Shown one piece after another: positions 61 to 7,525 of a stretch of 38,443 bases of DNA (the first letter of the stretch is position 1; every line of letters starts with the position of its first letter). The DNA is taken from positions 1 through 38,443 of the forward strand of contig JAIMKP010000029.1 of assembly GCA_020692355.1 (NCBI GenBank). Direction: 5' to 3'. The translations under genes and the position numbers were made by a program. This DNA comes from Desulfosporosinus sp. GTDB taxonomy: Bacteria; Bacillota; Desulfitobacteriia; Desulfitobacteriales; Desulfitobacteriaceae. A model generated the notes under the pieces. That model saw only the letters and a program-made list of their open reading frames with translations. It did no database searches and had not been told where the DNA came from.

Positions 61-813
61 ATGGGACAGACGATGGGACAGATGCTCCGGGAATGGGATA
101 TGATTCGAAACAACTTGCGTTCATTGTGGTACGAGGCACAGGAGCCCTGCCTCCTCTGTGGGGCAGATGAAGGGCCGATCTGTAAGAATTGTCAAGAGAT
201 GTATTTTACCTTAGAAATGGGCCGCTGCCAACAGTGCGGTAAGCTTGTTGAGCCGGATGTGGAACGTTGTGCAGACTGTGAGGAGGGCAAGGGCCCTCAG
301 GAAATTACCCGTGCCGCTGCCTGGGGGCACTATACAGGGCTTTGGAAGGATTTTATCTGGAATATGAAGTTCAAATCCCGTCCACTGCTCCTGCGGGGAC
401 TTGCCCATCCTGTGGGCGAAGCAGCCCTACGTTACCTGCCAGCCTCAGATGGTCTCGTACCCGTTCCTCTTCATCCGGAACGCTTAGCGGAGAGGGGGTT
501 TAATCAGGCAGAAGTAGTCGCTTCCCTTCTCCATTGGGAGCTAGGTCTGCCCTTGGTTCAAGGGCTTGAGCGGGTGCGTCCCACCCACCGTCAGGTGGGA
601 CTCAGGAGAGGTGAACGGCTAGAGAATCTTAAAGGTGCGTTTATCTTTCAGGGAGCCTCTATTCAAGGAAGGGAGTTGTGGCTCATTGATGATGTCATAA
701 CCACAGGTGCCACGCTGGAAGCTTGCGCTGAGGCTTTGCTCGAAGCTGGAGCTCGGCGGGTATATGCCTTCGCTTTAGCGGGGGGCCGGGAAGGCCAGAA
801 GGCAAGGGAGTGA
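61..813 (+). CDS. comF: ComF family phosphoribosyltransferase-like competence protein
   Basis: 250 residues, the usual length for ComF/GntX proteins. The N-terminal 75 residues carry four Cys pairs (C30/C33, C41/C44, C56/C59, C70/C73), typical of the zinc-binding region. The rest is a type I phosphoribosyltransferase fold with the PRPP loop IDDVITTGAT at 209-218. In naturally competent bacteria ComF is needed for uptake of single-stranded DNA; in non-competent relatives its role is unclear. GGGAGGG at 47-53 is the ribosome site for the ATG at 61. A second in-frame ATG lies at 73. The gene begins 22 bases from the end of a HEARO-like element. No competence pilus genes are in this window. Confidence 0.9.
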   Translation: MGQTMGQMLREWDMIRNNLRSLWYEAQEPCLLCGADEGPICKNCQEMYFTLEMGRCQQCGKLVEPDVERCADCEEGKGPQEITRAAAWGHYTGLWKDFIWNMKFKSRPLLLRGLAHPVGEAALRYLPASDGLVPVPLHPERLAERGFNQAEVVASLLHWELGLPLVQGLERVRPTHRQVGLRRGERLENLKGAFIFQGASIQGRELWLIDDVITTGATLEACAEALLEAGARRVYAFALAGGREGQKARE

Positions 814-835: not shown

Positions 836-920
836 TTATCCACATGAAAGGTGCGCATTTTTGCGGGCTGCGACCCTTTATCCACATTATCCACAGGGTG
901 GCACTTGATTCTGTGGATGA
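836..920. promoter_or_regulatory. cluster of DnaA boxes
   Basis: Three perfect DnaA boxes (TTATCCACA) lie at 836-844, 878-886 and 887-895, the last two directly abutting. A one-mismatch box in the opposite orientation (TGTGGATGA) lies at 912-920. They fill the first third of the gap between comF and the amino-acid transporter. No replication genes or AT-rich unwinding region are nearby, so this resembles the non-origin DnaA-box clusters known in Bacillus rather than an origin. Confidence 0.75.
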
Positions 921-954: not shown

Positions 955-983
955 GCAGGAATAATCTAAATTTTGACGAATAA
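955..983 (+). promoter_or_regulatory. sigma-H type promoter upstream of the amino-acid binding protein
   Basis: GCAGGAATA (955-963), an 11-base spacer, then GACGAATAA (975-983) fit the Bacillus sigma-H consensus RNAGGAWWW-N11/12-RNNGAATWW at every defined position. The start point would be near 990, leaving a leader of about 120 bases before the GTG at 1110. Confidence 0.6.
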
Positions 984-1013: not shown

Positions 1014-1042
1014 TTGTATAAAGATACATCAAAGTGTATAAT
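1014..1042 (+). promoter_or_regulatory. sigma-A promoter with overlapping inverted repeat, for the amino-acid binding protein
   Basis: TTGTAT (1014-1019), a 17-base spacer and a perfect TATAAT (1037-1042). TGTAT (1015-1019), ATACA (1024-1028) and TGTAT (1035-1039) form alternating inverted repeats across the promoter, a possible repressor site. A further inverted repeat, AATAGC/GCTATT, lies at 986-1008. I do not recognise the regulator. Confidence 0.6.
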
Positions 1043-1109: not shown

Positions 1110-1919
1110 GTGCACAAGAAAAGTTTTCACCTGATTTTAACAACCCTACTCATACTGAGCTTGGTGGTTCTTGCAGGGTGCGGGACAACGACACCCACAA
1201 CATCTGCACCTGCAGGAGGAACCGCTGCATCGACACCAGAGAAAATTCTTAAGGTTGGCTCCGACATTGCGTATGCCCCATTTGAATTTATGGATGAAAA
1301 GCAAAATCCAGTTGGTTTTGATATCGATTTAATGAATGCGATTGCTAAAGATATGGGTTACAAGGCTCAATTTGAGACCTCGCCATTCGATGGGTTGAAC
1401 CTTTCCCTGGCGTCAGGCAAATACGATGCCGTTATTTCTGCCATGACCATTACGCCGGAGCGGGCTAAAGTGGTTCTCTTCAGTGACAAATACTTCCTGG
1501 CCACTCAGTACATTGCCGTGAAGAAGGGCTCTGTGATTAAAACAGCGGCTGACCTGAAAGGGAAGCGTGTAGGAGTTCAAGCTGCGACTACGGGTCAATA
1601 TGCGATGGATAAAATGGGTGTAACGACTAAGAAGTATGACACCACCCCCGATGCTATGACGGATCTGGTGAATGGTGGGCTTGATGCGGTCGTCGCGGAT
1701 TCGCCGGTTATCCTTTACTTTATCAACAAGCAACCGAACGCCAATATTGTTGCACTGCAGGGAGACTTCGAGAAGGAATTTTATGGGATTGCAATGAAGC
1801 TCGACAACAAAGCACTGGCCGAAAAACTCAACGCTTCGTTAAAGAAACTGATCAGCAACGGGGAGTACGCCAAGATCTATAAAAAATGGTTTAATGCCGA
1901 TCCTCCCAGTTTAGCTTAA
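1110..1919 (+). CDS. polar amino-acid ABC transporter substrate-binding lipoprotein
   Basis: 269 residues of the family 3 solute-binding proteins (SBP_bac_3), which capture polar amino acids outside the membrane and deliver them to the permease. The signal peptide ends in a lipobox VLAGC with the lipidated Cys at 24, followed by a Thr/Ala/Ser-rich linker. The family signature around GFDIDLM follows at about residues 69-75, and length and fold pattern fit the glutamine/cystine/basic amino-acid subgroup. The ligand cannot be told from the sequence. The start is GTG with AAAGGGGA at 1094-1101. The permease and ATPase follow at 2209-3589, after two terminator-like hairpins and a separate promoter, so binding protein and membrane parts can be made in different amounts. 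Sigma-A and sigma-H type promoters precede it. Confidence 0.9.
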   Translation: MHKKSFHLILTTLLILSLVVLAGCGTTTPTTSAPAGGTAASTPEKILKVGSDIAYAPFEFMDEKQNPVGFDIDLMNAIAKDMGYKAQFETSPFDGLNLSLASGKYDAVISAMTITPERAKVVLFSDKYFLATQYIAVKKGSVIKTAADLKGKRVGVQAATTGQYAMDKMGVTTKKYDTTPDAMTDLVNGGLDAVVADSPVILYFINKQPNANIVALQGDFEKEFYGIAMKLDNKALAEKLNASLKKLISNGEYAKIYKKWFNADPPSLA

Positions 1920-2153: not shown

Positions 2154-2208
2154 GCCAAGGAATAGGTGAATAGGCATTATTAATACATCCTGGATGAGGA
2201 GGATTCTT

Positions 2209-2883
2209 GTGGTCATTGATTGGAGTGTGGCGATTAGGAGTTTGCCCATATTGCTGAAAGGGGCAGTCATCACCTTAGAACTCACGGCTGGTGCAGTGGC
2301 AATGGGCGTTGTGATTGGGATGTTTATGGCCTTAGCTCGCCTTTCGAAGCGCTGGCCCCTGCGGGCGTTCGCAACAGCGTACATCGATTTCTTGCGCGGG
2401 ACACCGCTCCTGGTTCAGATTTTCCTGGTCTATTTTGCCGCACCACAGTTGTTCCATTTCCAACCACCGGACAAGTATCCGTACATTGCTGGGATTTTGG
2501 CGATGGGGCTGAATTCTGGGGCTTACATTGCGGAAATTTTCCGGGCCGGGATTCAATCGATCGACCGGGGCCAATCTGAGGCCGCTCGTTCGCTGGGTAT
2601 GACCCAAGCCCAAGCCCTTCGTTATATCATCCTACCGCAGGCCATCAAACGGGTGATTCCCCCTCTGGGCAACGAGTTTATCGCGATGCTCAAGGATTCT
2701 TCGCTCGTGGCCGTCATTGCGATGGAGGAGTTGTTCTACTCGGGCAAACTTATCGTTGGCAACACGCTGCAATCGTTTCCGATCTATGGTACGGTGGCAC
2801 TCATTTATTTAGCCATGACCATGACCATCTCCAGGATTTTAGGGGTTGTCGAGAGGAGGTTGGGCAAGAGTGATATCCGTTAA
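2209..2883 (+). CDS. polar amino-acid ABC transporter permease
   Basis: HisM/GlnP-type inner-membrane permease of about 225 residues with five or six hydrophobic segments. The conserved cytoplasmic EAA loop is visible as [19 protein letters not shown], followed by [12 protein letters not shown], which contacts the ATPase. I place the start at GTG 2209, not at the in-frame ATG 2194: the bases after 2194 contain the ribosome site AGGAGG (2197-2202), which sits 6 bases before the GTG. The 3' end overlaps the ATPase gene by 14 bases, so the two are translationally coupled. It works with the lipoprotein at 1110 and the ATPase at 2870. Confidence 0.92.
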
Positions 2884-3589
2884 GAATTTGCATAAGTATT
2901 TCGGCAAGCTCGAGGTCCTCAAGGGTGTCAATCTCGAAGTCAAAGAGAAAGAAGTCGTGGTCGTCATTGGACCCAGCGGCTCGGGCAAGAGCACTTTTCT
3001 GCGCTGCCTCAACAAACTAGAGGAGCCCAATGACGGCGAAATCGTGATTGACGGAATTCCTCTTAGTTCGGATACGAATGTGAATGCTATCCGCCGGGAA
3101 GTCGGGATGGTTTTTCAACGCTTTAACCTTTTTCCTCACATGACGGCCTTGGAAAATATTGCACTTTCTCCCCAAATCGTGCGCAAGCTGAAGAAAGATG
3201 AGGCAGTGGCGGTTGGCTTGGAACTTCTGCGCAAAGTGGGACTCTCCGAGAAAGCCTACGAATATCCTGAACGGCTTTCGGGCGGCCAGCAGCAGAGGGT
3301 GGCGATTGCCCGGGCCCTAGCCATGAAGCCGAAAATCATGCTCTTTGATGAGCCGACTTCGGCGCTTGACCCCGAGATGGTGGGAGAGGTCCTAGCGGTT
3401 ATGAAGGATCTGGCTCAGGAAGGGATGACCATGGTTGTTGTCAGCCATGAAATGGGCTTTGCCAAGGAAGTAGGGGATCGGGTCATTTTTATGGATGAAG
3501 GGGTTATTATGGAGGCAGGGACGCCTGAGGCGCTCTTTAATCGCCCGCAGAACCTACGGACAAAGGCTTTCCTCAGTAAAATTCTTTGA
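2870..3589 (+). CDS. polar amino-acid ABC transporter ATP-binding protein (GlnQ type)
   Basis: About 239 residues, the usual size for GlnQ/HisP-type ATPases that power amino-acid uptake. Walker [11 protein letters not shown]-loop [10 protein letters not shown], signature LSGGQQQR, Walker [15 protein letters not shown] and the switch His (VVSHEM) are all present. I use GTG 2870, inside the permease gene, with AGGAGG at 2854-2859, rather than the longer TTG at 2846, which lies upstream of that ribosome site. A weak stem (3610-3636) after the stop is the only terminator-like structure. Confidence 0.92.
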
Positions 3590-3774: not shown

Positions 3775-3975
3775 TTGGTGGTTGGCAAGGTCAAATGGTT
3801 CAGTAAACAGAAAGGGTACGGATTTATTGAGCGCGAGAATGGACAAGATGTCTTTGTCCATTATGCGTCGGTTGTCGGTGAAGGGTTTCGTACTTTGGAA
3901 GAAGGACAAACGGTTGAATTCGACGTCATCGAAGGGCCGCGGGGAGAACAAGCAGCCAACGTAATTGTGCGCTAA
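3775..3975 (+). CDS. cold-shock protein (CspA/CspB family)
   Basis: 66 residues, a single cold-shock domain and nothing else. The RNA-binding motifs RNP1 (KGYGFI) and RNP2 (VFVHY) are intact, as are the GKVKWF start and the Gly-rich C-terminal strand. Such proteins bind single-stranded RNA and act as RNA chaperones. The ribosome site AAGGAGG (3761-3767) can serve either TTG 3775 (7-base gap) or GTG 3778 (10-base gap); the product differs by one residue. It stands alone between the ATPase gene and hpf. Confidence 0.93.
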
Positions 3976-4158: not shown

Positions 4159-4193
4159 TATAAGCATAGATCGCTAAAGGGGGGTTGTCATCG

Positions 4194-4715
4194 ATGAACA
4201 TTATGATTCGCGGCAAACATATCGAGGTGACCGATGCACTCAAAGACTATGTCATGAAGAGGGTGAGCAAGCTTGAGCGCTATTCTGATGAATTTCAGGA
4301 TGTGCAGGTGACCCTTTTGGTAGAAAAGGATCGGCATCGGGTAGAGGTAACGGCCCCAATTAACGGAATGATCTTGCGGGGGGAAGAAGAGAGTTCTGAC
4401 ATGTACCAATCCATTGATCTCGTACTGGAGAAGCTGGAGCGGCAGATTGATAAATATCGGACGCGCATCGCTAAACGGCTGCGAACGAAGGTTCTGAAAG
4501 ATCACGAAGCAGAGCATCCTGTCGAGGAAGAAGCCCATCAGGTGGTGCGGAATAAGAAGTTCCAGGCGAAACCGATGTCCGTGGATGAGGCGATTATGCA
4601 AATGAATTTGATTGGACATAACTTCTTTGTCTTTTACGATGCCGATTCCCATCACATGAGTGTGGTCTACCGCCGTAAAGACGGGGGTTATGGTGTCTTG
4701 GAGCCTGAAATGTAA
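4194..4715 (+). CDS. hpf: ribosome hibernation-promoting factor, long form
   Basis: 173 residues: an N-terminal S30AE/RaiA domain (about 1-100), a charged linker, and the C-terminal dimerisation domain (about 115-173, NKKFQAKPMSVDEAI onward). The two-domain form occurs in most Firmicutes and joins 70S ribosomes into inactive 100S dimers in stationary phase. The ATG at 4194 has AAGGGGGG 9 bases upstream; the TTG at 4185 abuts that site and is rejected. A sigma-H type promoter precedes it and a strong terminator follows. Confidence 0.95.
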   Translation: MNIMIRGKHIEVTDALKDYVMKRVSKLERYSDEFQDVQVTLLVEKDRHRVEVTAPINGMILRGEEESSDMYQSIDLVLEKLERQIDKYRTRIAKRLRTKVLKDHEAEHPVEEEAHQVVRNKKFQAKPMSVDEAIMQMNLIGHNFFVFYDADSHHMSVVYRRKDGGYGVLEPEM

Positions 4716-5023: not shown

Positions 5024-7525
5024 ATGGGGTTTCTCGGCAGTTTGTTAGACGACAATGCCCGTGAAATAAAAAAATATCAAAAAAAGGTACAAGCCATTAA
5101 TGCGCTTGAACCCGAAATAAAAGCGCTTGCAGATGAAGAATTAAGGAATAAAACCGCTGAGTTTCGTGAGCGCCTGGATCAAGGAGAAAATCTGGATTCT
5201 TTGCTTCCTGAGGCTTTCGCAGTCGTACGGGAGGCGGCCTGGCGGGTTTTAGGCCAGCGGCATTATGATGTCCAGTTGATCGGGGGCATGGTACTGCATG
5301 ACGGGCGCATTGCCGAGATGAGAACGGGGGAAGGGAAAACTCTTGTTGCTACCCTGCCTTCTTATTTAAATGCCTTGACCGGAAGAGGCGTCCATATTGT
5401 GACCGTCAATGATTATCTAGCCCGGCGGGACAGTGAATGGATGGGCCAAATTCATCGGTTCCTCGGCCTTTCTGTGGGCTTGATTGTCCATGGGTTGAAT
5501 TATGAACAACGGCGGCAAAGTTATGCTTCAGATATTACCTATGGCACCAATAATGAATTTGGTTTTGACTACTTGCGTGACAACATGGTCACGCGACCCG
5601 ATGGGTTGGTGCAGCGGGAACAGCATTATGCCATTGTGGACGAAGTCGATTCCATCTTAGTTGATGAGGCACGCACTCCCCTCATTATTTCTGGGGAAGC
5701 GGACAAACCGACGGATCTCTATCTTCGAGTGGCCCGCGTGATTCCCCGCCTCAAAGTAGAGGATGATTATCATGTGAATGAAAAAGACCGAGTGGTCACC
5801 TTGACCGAACACGGAGTGAGCCGGGTGGAGAGCATGTTGGGGGTGGAGAATCTCTATGATGATCTGCATACTGAACTTCATCACCATGTGAACCAGGCAC
5901 TGAAAGCCCACACCTTATTTCGACGGGATAGGGACTATGTCGTGAAAGATGGGGAAGTTATCATTGTTGATGAGTTTACAGGGCGTATGATGTTTGGGCG
6001 GCGCTACAGCGAAGGCTTGCACCAAGCGATCGAGGCCAAAGAAGGGGTTAAGATCGAGAAGGAATCCCAAACGCTAGCGACGATTACGTTCCAAAACTTC
6101 TTCCGCATGTATGAAAAACTCGCCGGGATGACGGGTACTGCCATGACAGAAGAACCAGAATTCAAAAAGATTTATAAGCTGGAAGTCATTGAAATCCCTA
6201 CCAATCGTCCGATGCGACGGACGGATCTTCCAGATGTGGTCTACCGGAGCGAAGATGGGAAGTTTAATGCGGTGGTCGAGAGCATTGTGGAACGGCATGA
6301 ATTGGGCCAACCCGTGCTGGTCGGAACCATATCGATTGAGAAATCAGAGCGCTTGAGTAGCATGTTGGAGCGCCGGGGGATAACGCATCAAGTCCTCAAT
6401 GCCAAGTTCCACGAGAAAGAAGCGGAGATTATCGCTGGAGCGGGCCAGCCTGGCGTGGTCACGATTGCCACCAACATGGCCGGACGTGGTACGGATATCA
6501 TGCTCGGCGAAGGGGTGGCGGATCGGGGTGGCTTGCATATCATTGGCACCGAGCGCCATGAATCGCGGCGGATTGACAATCAGTTGCGCGGCCGGGCTGG
6601 ACGCCAAGGGGATCCAGGTTCTTCGCAATTCTTTATTTCCCTAGAAGATGATCTCATGCGTTTGTTCGGATCAGAAAACATTATGGGGATTATGGATAAA
6701 TTAGGAATGGATGATTCTGTTCCTATTACCTCGAAAATGATCACCCGCTCGATCGAAACGGCCCAGCGCCGGGTGGAAAACCGGAACTTTGATATCCGAA
6801 AACATGTGCTTGAATATGATGATGTCATGAACCAACAACGCGAAGTGATCTATGCCCAGCGCCGCAAGGTACTTATGGGCGAGAGCTTGCGCGACAATAT
6901 CATGGAAATGCTGGAGAAAGTGGTTGCGGATACGATCGGAATGTTCAGCGGAGCAAGCCCGTATCCGGAAGAATGGGATCTGGCGAGCTTCCTGGAGTAC
7001 TGTGAGAACGCCTTCCTGCCAGGTCATGACTTGACCGCAGAGGAATTAGCGAACCAAACGAAAGAGGAAGTGGAAGAACTCTTGCTGGGGCGGGCACAAG
7101 CTCTCTATGAACAGAGAGAGGCCCTTTTCGGGAATGAACTCATGCGCGAGATTGAACGGGCGGTCATGCTTCAGGTTGTGGATGCCAAGTGGATGGATCA
7201 TCTCGATGCCATGGATATGCTGCGGGAAGGAATTGGCCTGCGAGCCTATGGACAAAGGGATCCCTTGGTAGAATACCGTCATGAAGGGTATGATATGTTC
7301 CAGGCGATGATTGATTCCATCCAAGAGGATATTATCCGCTACTTGATGCGTGTCACTCCCCAAGTTCGGGAGCAGGTGCCGGAAGAGCCTCAACACTTGA
7401 GCACGAACCGTGATCAGGAAGAACCGCAACGTCCCGTGCACACGGGGGGGAAAATTGGGCGCAATGATCCATGCCCCTGTGGCAGTGGCAAGAAATACAA
7501 AAACTGCTGTGGGATGAACAAATAG
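5024..7525 (+). CDS. secA: preprotein translocase ATPase SecA
   Basis: 833 residues, full length. SecA drives unfolded secretory proteins through SecYEG. Walker A MRTGEGKT is at 99-106 and the DEVD box at 206-209. The preprotein cross-linking domain lies between the two motor halves; the second motor half (TNMAGRGTD, then [30 protein letters not shown] split by short gaps) is intact. The C-terminal zinc-binding SecB/ribosome-contact tail has C817, C819, C828 and C829. The ATG is preceded by GGAAAGG. prfB follows after 18 bases with no terminator, a common secA-prfB pairing in Firmicutes. Confidence 0.97.

Follow-up and report, generated by a model that had tools for sequence, protein, structure and literature searches.

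What is a tight group of DnaA boxes doing between a comFC-like gene and an amino-acid transporter in a Desulfosporosinus genome, from a host that is not a Bacillus? What is known of extra-oriC DnaA-box loci comes, to our knowledge, mainly from B. subtilis and E. coli. The DNA analysed here, hereafter the window, is a stretch of 38,443 nucleotides of contig JAIMKP010000029.1 from Desulfosporosinus sp., a genus included in the family (Desulfitobacteriaceae) whose members form the nearest level of comparison below. The original prediction, made from the letters alone, placed the cluster between comF and an amino-acid transporter, as the gene neighbourhood confirms, and proposed a DnaA-binding site of the B. 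subtilis type that might link replication state to the transporter or to comF. The features concerned are as follows, in window coordinates.

61..813, + strand: comFC-like gene with a double zinc ribbon and a phosphoribosyltransferase domain; upstream neighbour of the cluster
836..844, + strand: DnaA box 1, perfect TTATCCACA; starts 42 bp (4 helical turns) before box 2, a spacing kept at 42-44 bp in relatives
878..886, + strand: DnaA box 2, perfect TTATCCACA, first of the abutting pair
887..895, + strand: DnaA box 3, perfect TTATCCACA, abutting box 2
912..920, - strand: inverted DnaA box, TCATCCACA, one mismatch; 25 bp after the start of box 3
974..980, + strand: TGACGAA, matching the Spo0A-box consensus TG[TA]CGAA (PMC4285127); weak, may be chance
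1014..1042, + strand: possible transporter promoter, TTGTAT-17 bp-TATAAT, picked by eye (-10 perfect, -35 3/6) and absent from the output of a consensus promoter scan
1110..1919, + strand: amino-acid ABC transporter solute-binding protein, SBP_bac_3 (family 3); downstream neighbour of the cluster
2194..2883, + strand: ABC transporter permease
2846..3589, + strand: ABC transporter ATPase
3778..3975, + strand: cspA-like cold-shock protein, member of the conserved cspA-hpf-secA block
4185..4715, + strand: hpf, ribosome hibernation factor, part of the cluster's conserved anchor
5024..7525, + strand: secA

The boxes are exactly where the original prediction had them: three perfect copies, two of them abutting, and an inverted copy with one mismatch. 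With four boxes in 85 bp, the element has the density of a DnaA-box cluster (DBC), defined as at least three DnaA boxes averaging less than 100 bp apart (PMC7561715). Chance is a poor explanation for it, as had been argued: at the observed density, three or more perfect boxes within 60 bp are expected anywhere in the genome about 1e-5 times per genome (Poisson). The window as a whole holds 17 matches at one mismatch or fewer, against 6.7 +/- 2.4 in shuffled sequence, with 0/100 shuffles reaching 17. Genome-wide, a count that the prediction had itself suggested as a check, the 3.36 Mb (101 contigs) contain 45 perfect boxes, compared with 15 for the reversed pattern as a control, and the abutting pair TTATCCACATTATCCACA occurs twice, at the comF locus and 3' of tsaD, the reversed pair not at all.

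A pattern search for DnaA-box clusters throughout the genome places the comF-side cluster among its two densest. The other lies just 3' of tsaD (L003:1781-1937, contig C57), with three perfect and two one-mismatch boxes. Between argH and a nicotinate phosphoribosyltransferase gene (pncB, identified by reading its translation), contig C41 (L005:2427-2522) carries four boxes, two perfect and two near-perfect; this cluster recurs in family members, and in G014 it lies 278 kb from the start of the dnaA-bearing contig. Two perfect boxes and one near-perfect box follow a nif3-like gene on contig C71, and two perfect boxes fall within a reading frame on contig C24. The genome encodes a canonical DnaA with N-terminal, ATPase and HTH domains, from a dnaA-rpmH region on contig C82 whose flanking intergenic regions are box-rich and which is presumably oriC. 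A second DnaA-like protein of 329 aa (L010:1483-2472, contig C47) has ATPase and C-terminal HTH domains and a degenerate box-recognition motif, KEHGAII versus RDHTTVI in DnaA; similar matches occur in 8/8 complete or near-complete family genomes searched.

Is the arrangement kept by relatives? Across the family, a cluster lies 3' of comF, in comF's orientation, at 23/30 comF loci, with box starts typically 42-44 and 9 bp apart; the conserved layout is a box, 33–35 bp, an abutting pair and often an inverted box. All four boxes of the nearest relative, the congener G040, are identical to those of the window, while its spacer differs at several positions. Abutting pairs are found in 45/46 family genomes, at one to four per genome (reversed pattern, 0), and recur at tsaD and argH-pncB as well as at comF. 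The seven comF loci without a cluster come from genera g2, g3 and g4 and from one g8 genome of the two (G001-G005, G007 and that g8 genome).

Beyond the family, the comF loci inspected came from the order (15 other genomes), the class (five) and the phylum (68). Their counts are not independent events, since the sampled genomes share ancestry, and the first 28 phylum loci were among the best ComF matches. In 13/15 order genomes there is an abutting pair whose boxes each have no more than one mismatch, and the remaining two keep the place with degenerate boxes; the inverted box of order-level relatives sits at +15, about one helical turn closer than in the window. The comF-side cluster was found in 0/5 genomes of the class sample and in 21/68 of the phylum sample (18 with an abutting pair, three looser), compared with 0/88 control regions upstream of comF. 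When 42 hpf/comF elements are aligned, the paired-box columns are near invariant and most flanking columns variable; the flanks are the informative part, since the elements were chosen for having the pair. Many phylum members also retain, 12 bp ahead of the pair, a sequence of the TTATTAACA type. Conservation in relatives thus exceeds chance, as expected of a DBC, and conservation at comF, on which the original prediction had staked its own refutation, was borne out in family and order. The recurrence of one arrangement in one gene neighbourhood across many relatives makes it very probable that the comF-side element is a real replication control element and not a coincidence.

What the cluster is anchored to is neither of its immediate neighbours. 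Within the phylum sample, it is present in 21/28 genomes with an SBP or Hpf gene after comF versus 0/40 without one (Fisher p = 6e-12, phylogeny ignored). Where comF and hpf lie apart (20 genomes), the same kind of module stands upstream of hpf in seven, in two of them about 3 kb upstream, where a transporter probably lies between, as in the window. The 5' flank of [transporter]-cspA-hpf-secA thus emerges as the constant anchor. An anchor at comF is ruled out, as the cluster goes with hpf where the two are separate, and so is the transporter as a conserved target, as the downstream gene varies. The preceding gene may be comFC, a zinc-ribbon protein (Desulfosporosinus) or, in some named Clostridia, FlgN-like genes further upstream; the following gene may encode a family-3 SBP, a family-5 peptide SBP, CspA or Hpf. 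Three Desulfosporosinus genomes (L072, L119, L209) have a small zinc-ribbon protein between comFC and the cluster and a family-5-like peptide-binding gene between the cluster and the amino-acid transporter. Since the immediate neighbours vary in this way, a specific link of the cluster to the transporter or comF, as originally suggested, is unlikely.

The cluster had also been described as far from any replication gene, which is right inside the window, with dnaA-rpmH on C82, and does not carry over to the chromosome at large: among complete chromosomes with a comF-side cluster, comF lies 105-221 kb from dnaA in 10/10. Complete relatives overall place comF 103-1070 kb from dnaA, outside oriC, and those with comF more than 250 kb away have a comF-side cluster in 0/8 cases. 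The module sits at hpf in G090, G136 and G163, where hpf is distant, and in G079, where it is nearer the origin. The distance trend (p = 0.009 without correction for phylogeny) is confounded by both synteny and phylogeny, and its distances come from complete relatives, the window's genome being a draft. Proximity alone does not predict the cluster, as eight origin-near comF cases are without one.

Nor is the layout peculiar to this neighbourhood. A box-31/36-pair scan of named genomes returned at least 118 loci, and the matches listed comprise 42 at dnaA, 14 at tsaD, 30 in a comF/hpf/SBP neighbourhood and 32 elsewhere, some of these 32 in a murC/DnaB_2 setting in Lachnospiraceae-type genomes; the narrower box-33/35-pair form is likewise found at oriC and 3' of tsaD. 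As it recurs at dnaA, tsaD, comF/hpf and other places, the layout is a general grammar of DnaA arrays, employed by oriC and by a small number of sites beyond it. Box clusters lie 3' of tsaD in more than half of 30 phylum genomes. Five Lachnospiraceae-type loci (L043, L051, L068, L079, L086) have the three-box module with a murC-like gene on one side and a DnaB_2 (replication initiation) gene on the other; the two neighbours were checked in L043 and L079, murC alone in L051. In L051, L068 and L086, a match to the Spo0A box falls 83 bp past the start of the pair.

Taken with moderate confidence, the best account of the element is an extra-oriC DnaA-box cluster, most likely one of a few redundant, origin-proximal DnaA sinks. 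The B. subtilis-type, DnaA-binding cluster of the original prediction remains the best reading. DnaA probably binds here, as the boxes are perfect consensus, the canonical DnaA is intact and the tsaD/gcp cluster is DnaA-bound in B. subtilis. In the proposed mechanism, DnaA would assemble on a helically phased high-affinity array of a box, four turns, the abutting pair and the inverted box; duplicated soon after initiation, the cluster would take up free DnaA and so delay the next initiation. The candidate sinks 3' of tsaD and between argH and pncB would be redundant with it. We propose sequestration because B. subtilis initiates early once six extra-oriC clusters are deleted (PMC5295017, PMC13220808); that sequestration, and not local transcription control, is the main function we suggest with less assurance than binding itself. 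The cluster is dispensable, as it is missing at comF in several close genera, which fits redundancy, although a minor role would explain it too.

Local transcription control, the main rival, draws support from the hpf anchoring and from a Spo0A box found in relatives. In 18 phylum elements outside the order (within L240-L267, L288-L327, L339 and L345), which precede cspA-hpf or SBP genes, the Spo0A box in its complementary form, TTCGACA, starts +53 to +57 from the pair start in constant orientation, and Spo0A is encoded in 18/18 of these genomes. Among the matches listed, a Spo0A box at that distance occurs in 6/30 comF/hpf loci and in 0/42 oriC, 0/14 tsaD and 0/32 other loci; the oriC and tsaD figures rule it out as a general feature of DnaA clusters. 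The window's genome does encode Spo0A itself, and the window has no Spo0A box at +53 to +57, reading ATTGACA at +54 to +60 where relatives have TTCGACA. The fixed Spo0A box is a feature of relatives, not of the window.

On this rival account, the element is a DnaA-responsive regulatory region at which bound DnaA would activate or repress the following operon (the transporter here, cspA-hpf-secA in most relatives) and so tie ribosome hibernation, secretion or uptake to the state of replication, as at sda and ywlC in B. subtilis. The tracking of the SBP/Hpf gene, the association with hpf where comF is separate and the fixed-distance Spo0A box all speak for it, as does the position of the window's cluster some 100-200 bp before the possible promoter. 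Yet the directly downstream gene differs by lineage (SBP3, peptide SBP5, cspA, hpf), three transporter genes separate cluster and cspA-hpf in the window, and the peptide-binding gene of the three Desulfosporosinus genomes stands between cluster and transporter; the same grammar 3' of tsaD, moreover, has no single downstream gene. We consider this possible, if on the unlikely side.

Doubtful, and put forward tentatively, is the idea that an ancient composite DnaA/Spo0A switch, widespread beside hpf-secA in this Bacillota phylum, survives in the cluster as a remnant or in a variant form. DnaA and Spo0A would bind such a switch at fixed spacing, so that replication state and sporulation or stationary-phase commitment jointly set DnaA availability and cspA-hpf (ribosome hibernation) expression. 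If true, it would wire replication to dormancy differently from the sda route of B. subtilis, and the fixed-distance Spo0A box of relatives would offer a directly testable link from replication control to dormancy entry.

It is improbable that the cluster is instead a site altering the nucleotide state of DnaA, a functional analogue of E. coli datA/DARS and not a passive sink. The phased multi-box geometry with its inverted box could suggest a defined DnaA oligomer, and the element is origin-proximal in relatives; against this, datA needs IHF, which B. subtilis is stated to lack (PMC13220808, PMC5295017), and no accessory site was found except the Spo0A box, missing at that place in the window's genome. 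Arrays of the same layout at oriC in many Bacillota might recall a second or relic replication origin, a highly improbable reading given that dnaA lies elsewhere with its own box-rich intergenic regions (C82) and that inspection by eye downstream of the pair showed no run of DnaA-trios, for which more than three [T/A]A[G/A] should follow a GC cluster. Chance, an RNA element or a mobile repeat containing the 9-mer has just as negligible a claim: the folding energy of the window's element is mildly low (z = -2.0), but there is no Rfam match, the mean folding z is -0.3 over 42 elements with no consensus structure, the genome holds only two abutting pairs, and the layout is conserved over many families while the flanks diverge.

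How, then, does the favoured DnaA sink compare with known systems? Like E. coli datA and DARS1/2, it is a non-coding DnaA-box locus away from oriC, putatively tuning initiation, for which distance from the origin may matter; the likeness is one of site type. B. subtilis oriC has overlapping DnaA and Spo0A boxes, and the phylum relatives' elements also combine both at fixed spacing; unlike that origin, they lie outside oriC beside hpf-secA, with a non-overlapping Spo0A box 53-57 bp after the pair start that is not at that place in the window. DnaA controls sda and ywlC in B. subtilis, and a box cluster upstream of a gene is common to the DnaA-regulated promoters of sda, ywlC and yydA and to our element, whose downstream gene, unlike theirs, is not constant.

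The closest parallel is with the extra-oriC DBCs of B. subtilis (Okumura et al. 2012, as summarized in reviews), which are likewise made of several near-perfect boxes, intergenic, outside oriC and few per genome. The second cluster of the present genome, 3' of tsaD, occupies the position of the gcp/ydiF cluster; B. subtilis has eight high-affinity DnaA regions, and the one downstream of gcp (= tsaD)/ydiF is among the most strongly bound, with a Kd of 0.15 uM for ATP-DnaA (PMC4447404, Smith and Grossman 2015). The high-affinity regions listed there include no comF or hpf-secA cluster (PMC4447404), and a literature search of incomplete coverage found no published DnaA-box cluster at comF or hpf. 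Also unlike the B. subtilis DBCs, the box-33/35-pair-inverted layout of this element is fixed and conserved through its Bacillota relatives. The cluster would be a new, deeply conserved case of the known extra-oriC DnaA-box clusters; the composite form seen in relatives is more novel. Many families of a phylum keep both the cluster's internal geometry and its position next to hpf-secA, and its companion at tsaD is common to B. subtilis; if the reading is true, DnaA sinks would belong to the ancient, fixed make-up of Bacillota chromosomes instead of being accidents of particular lineages.
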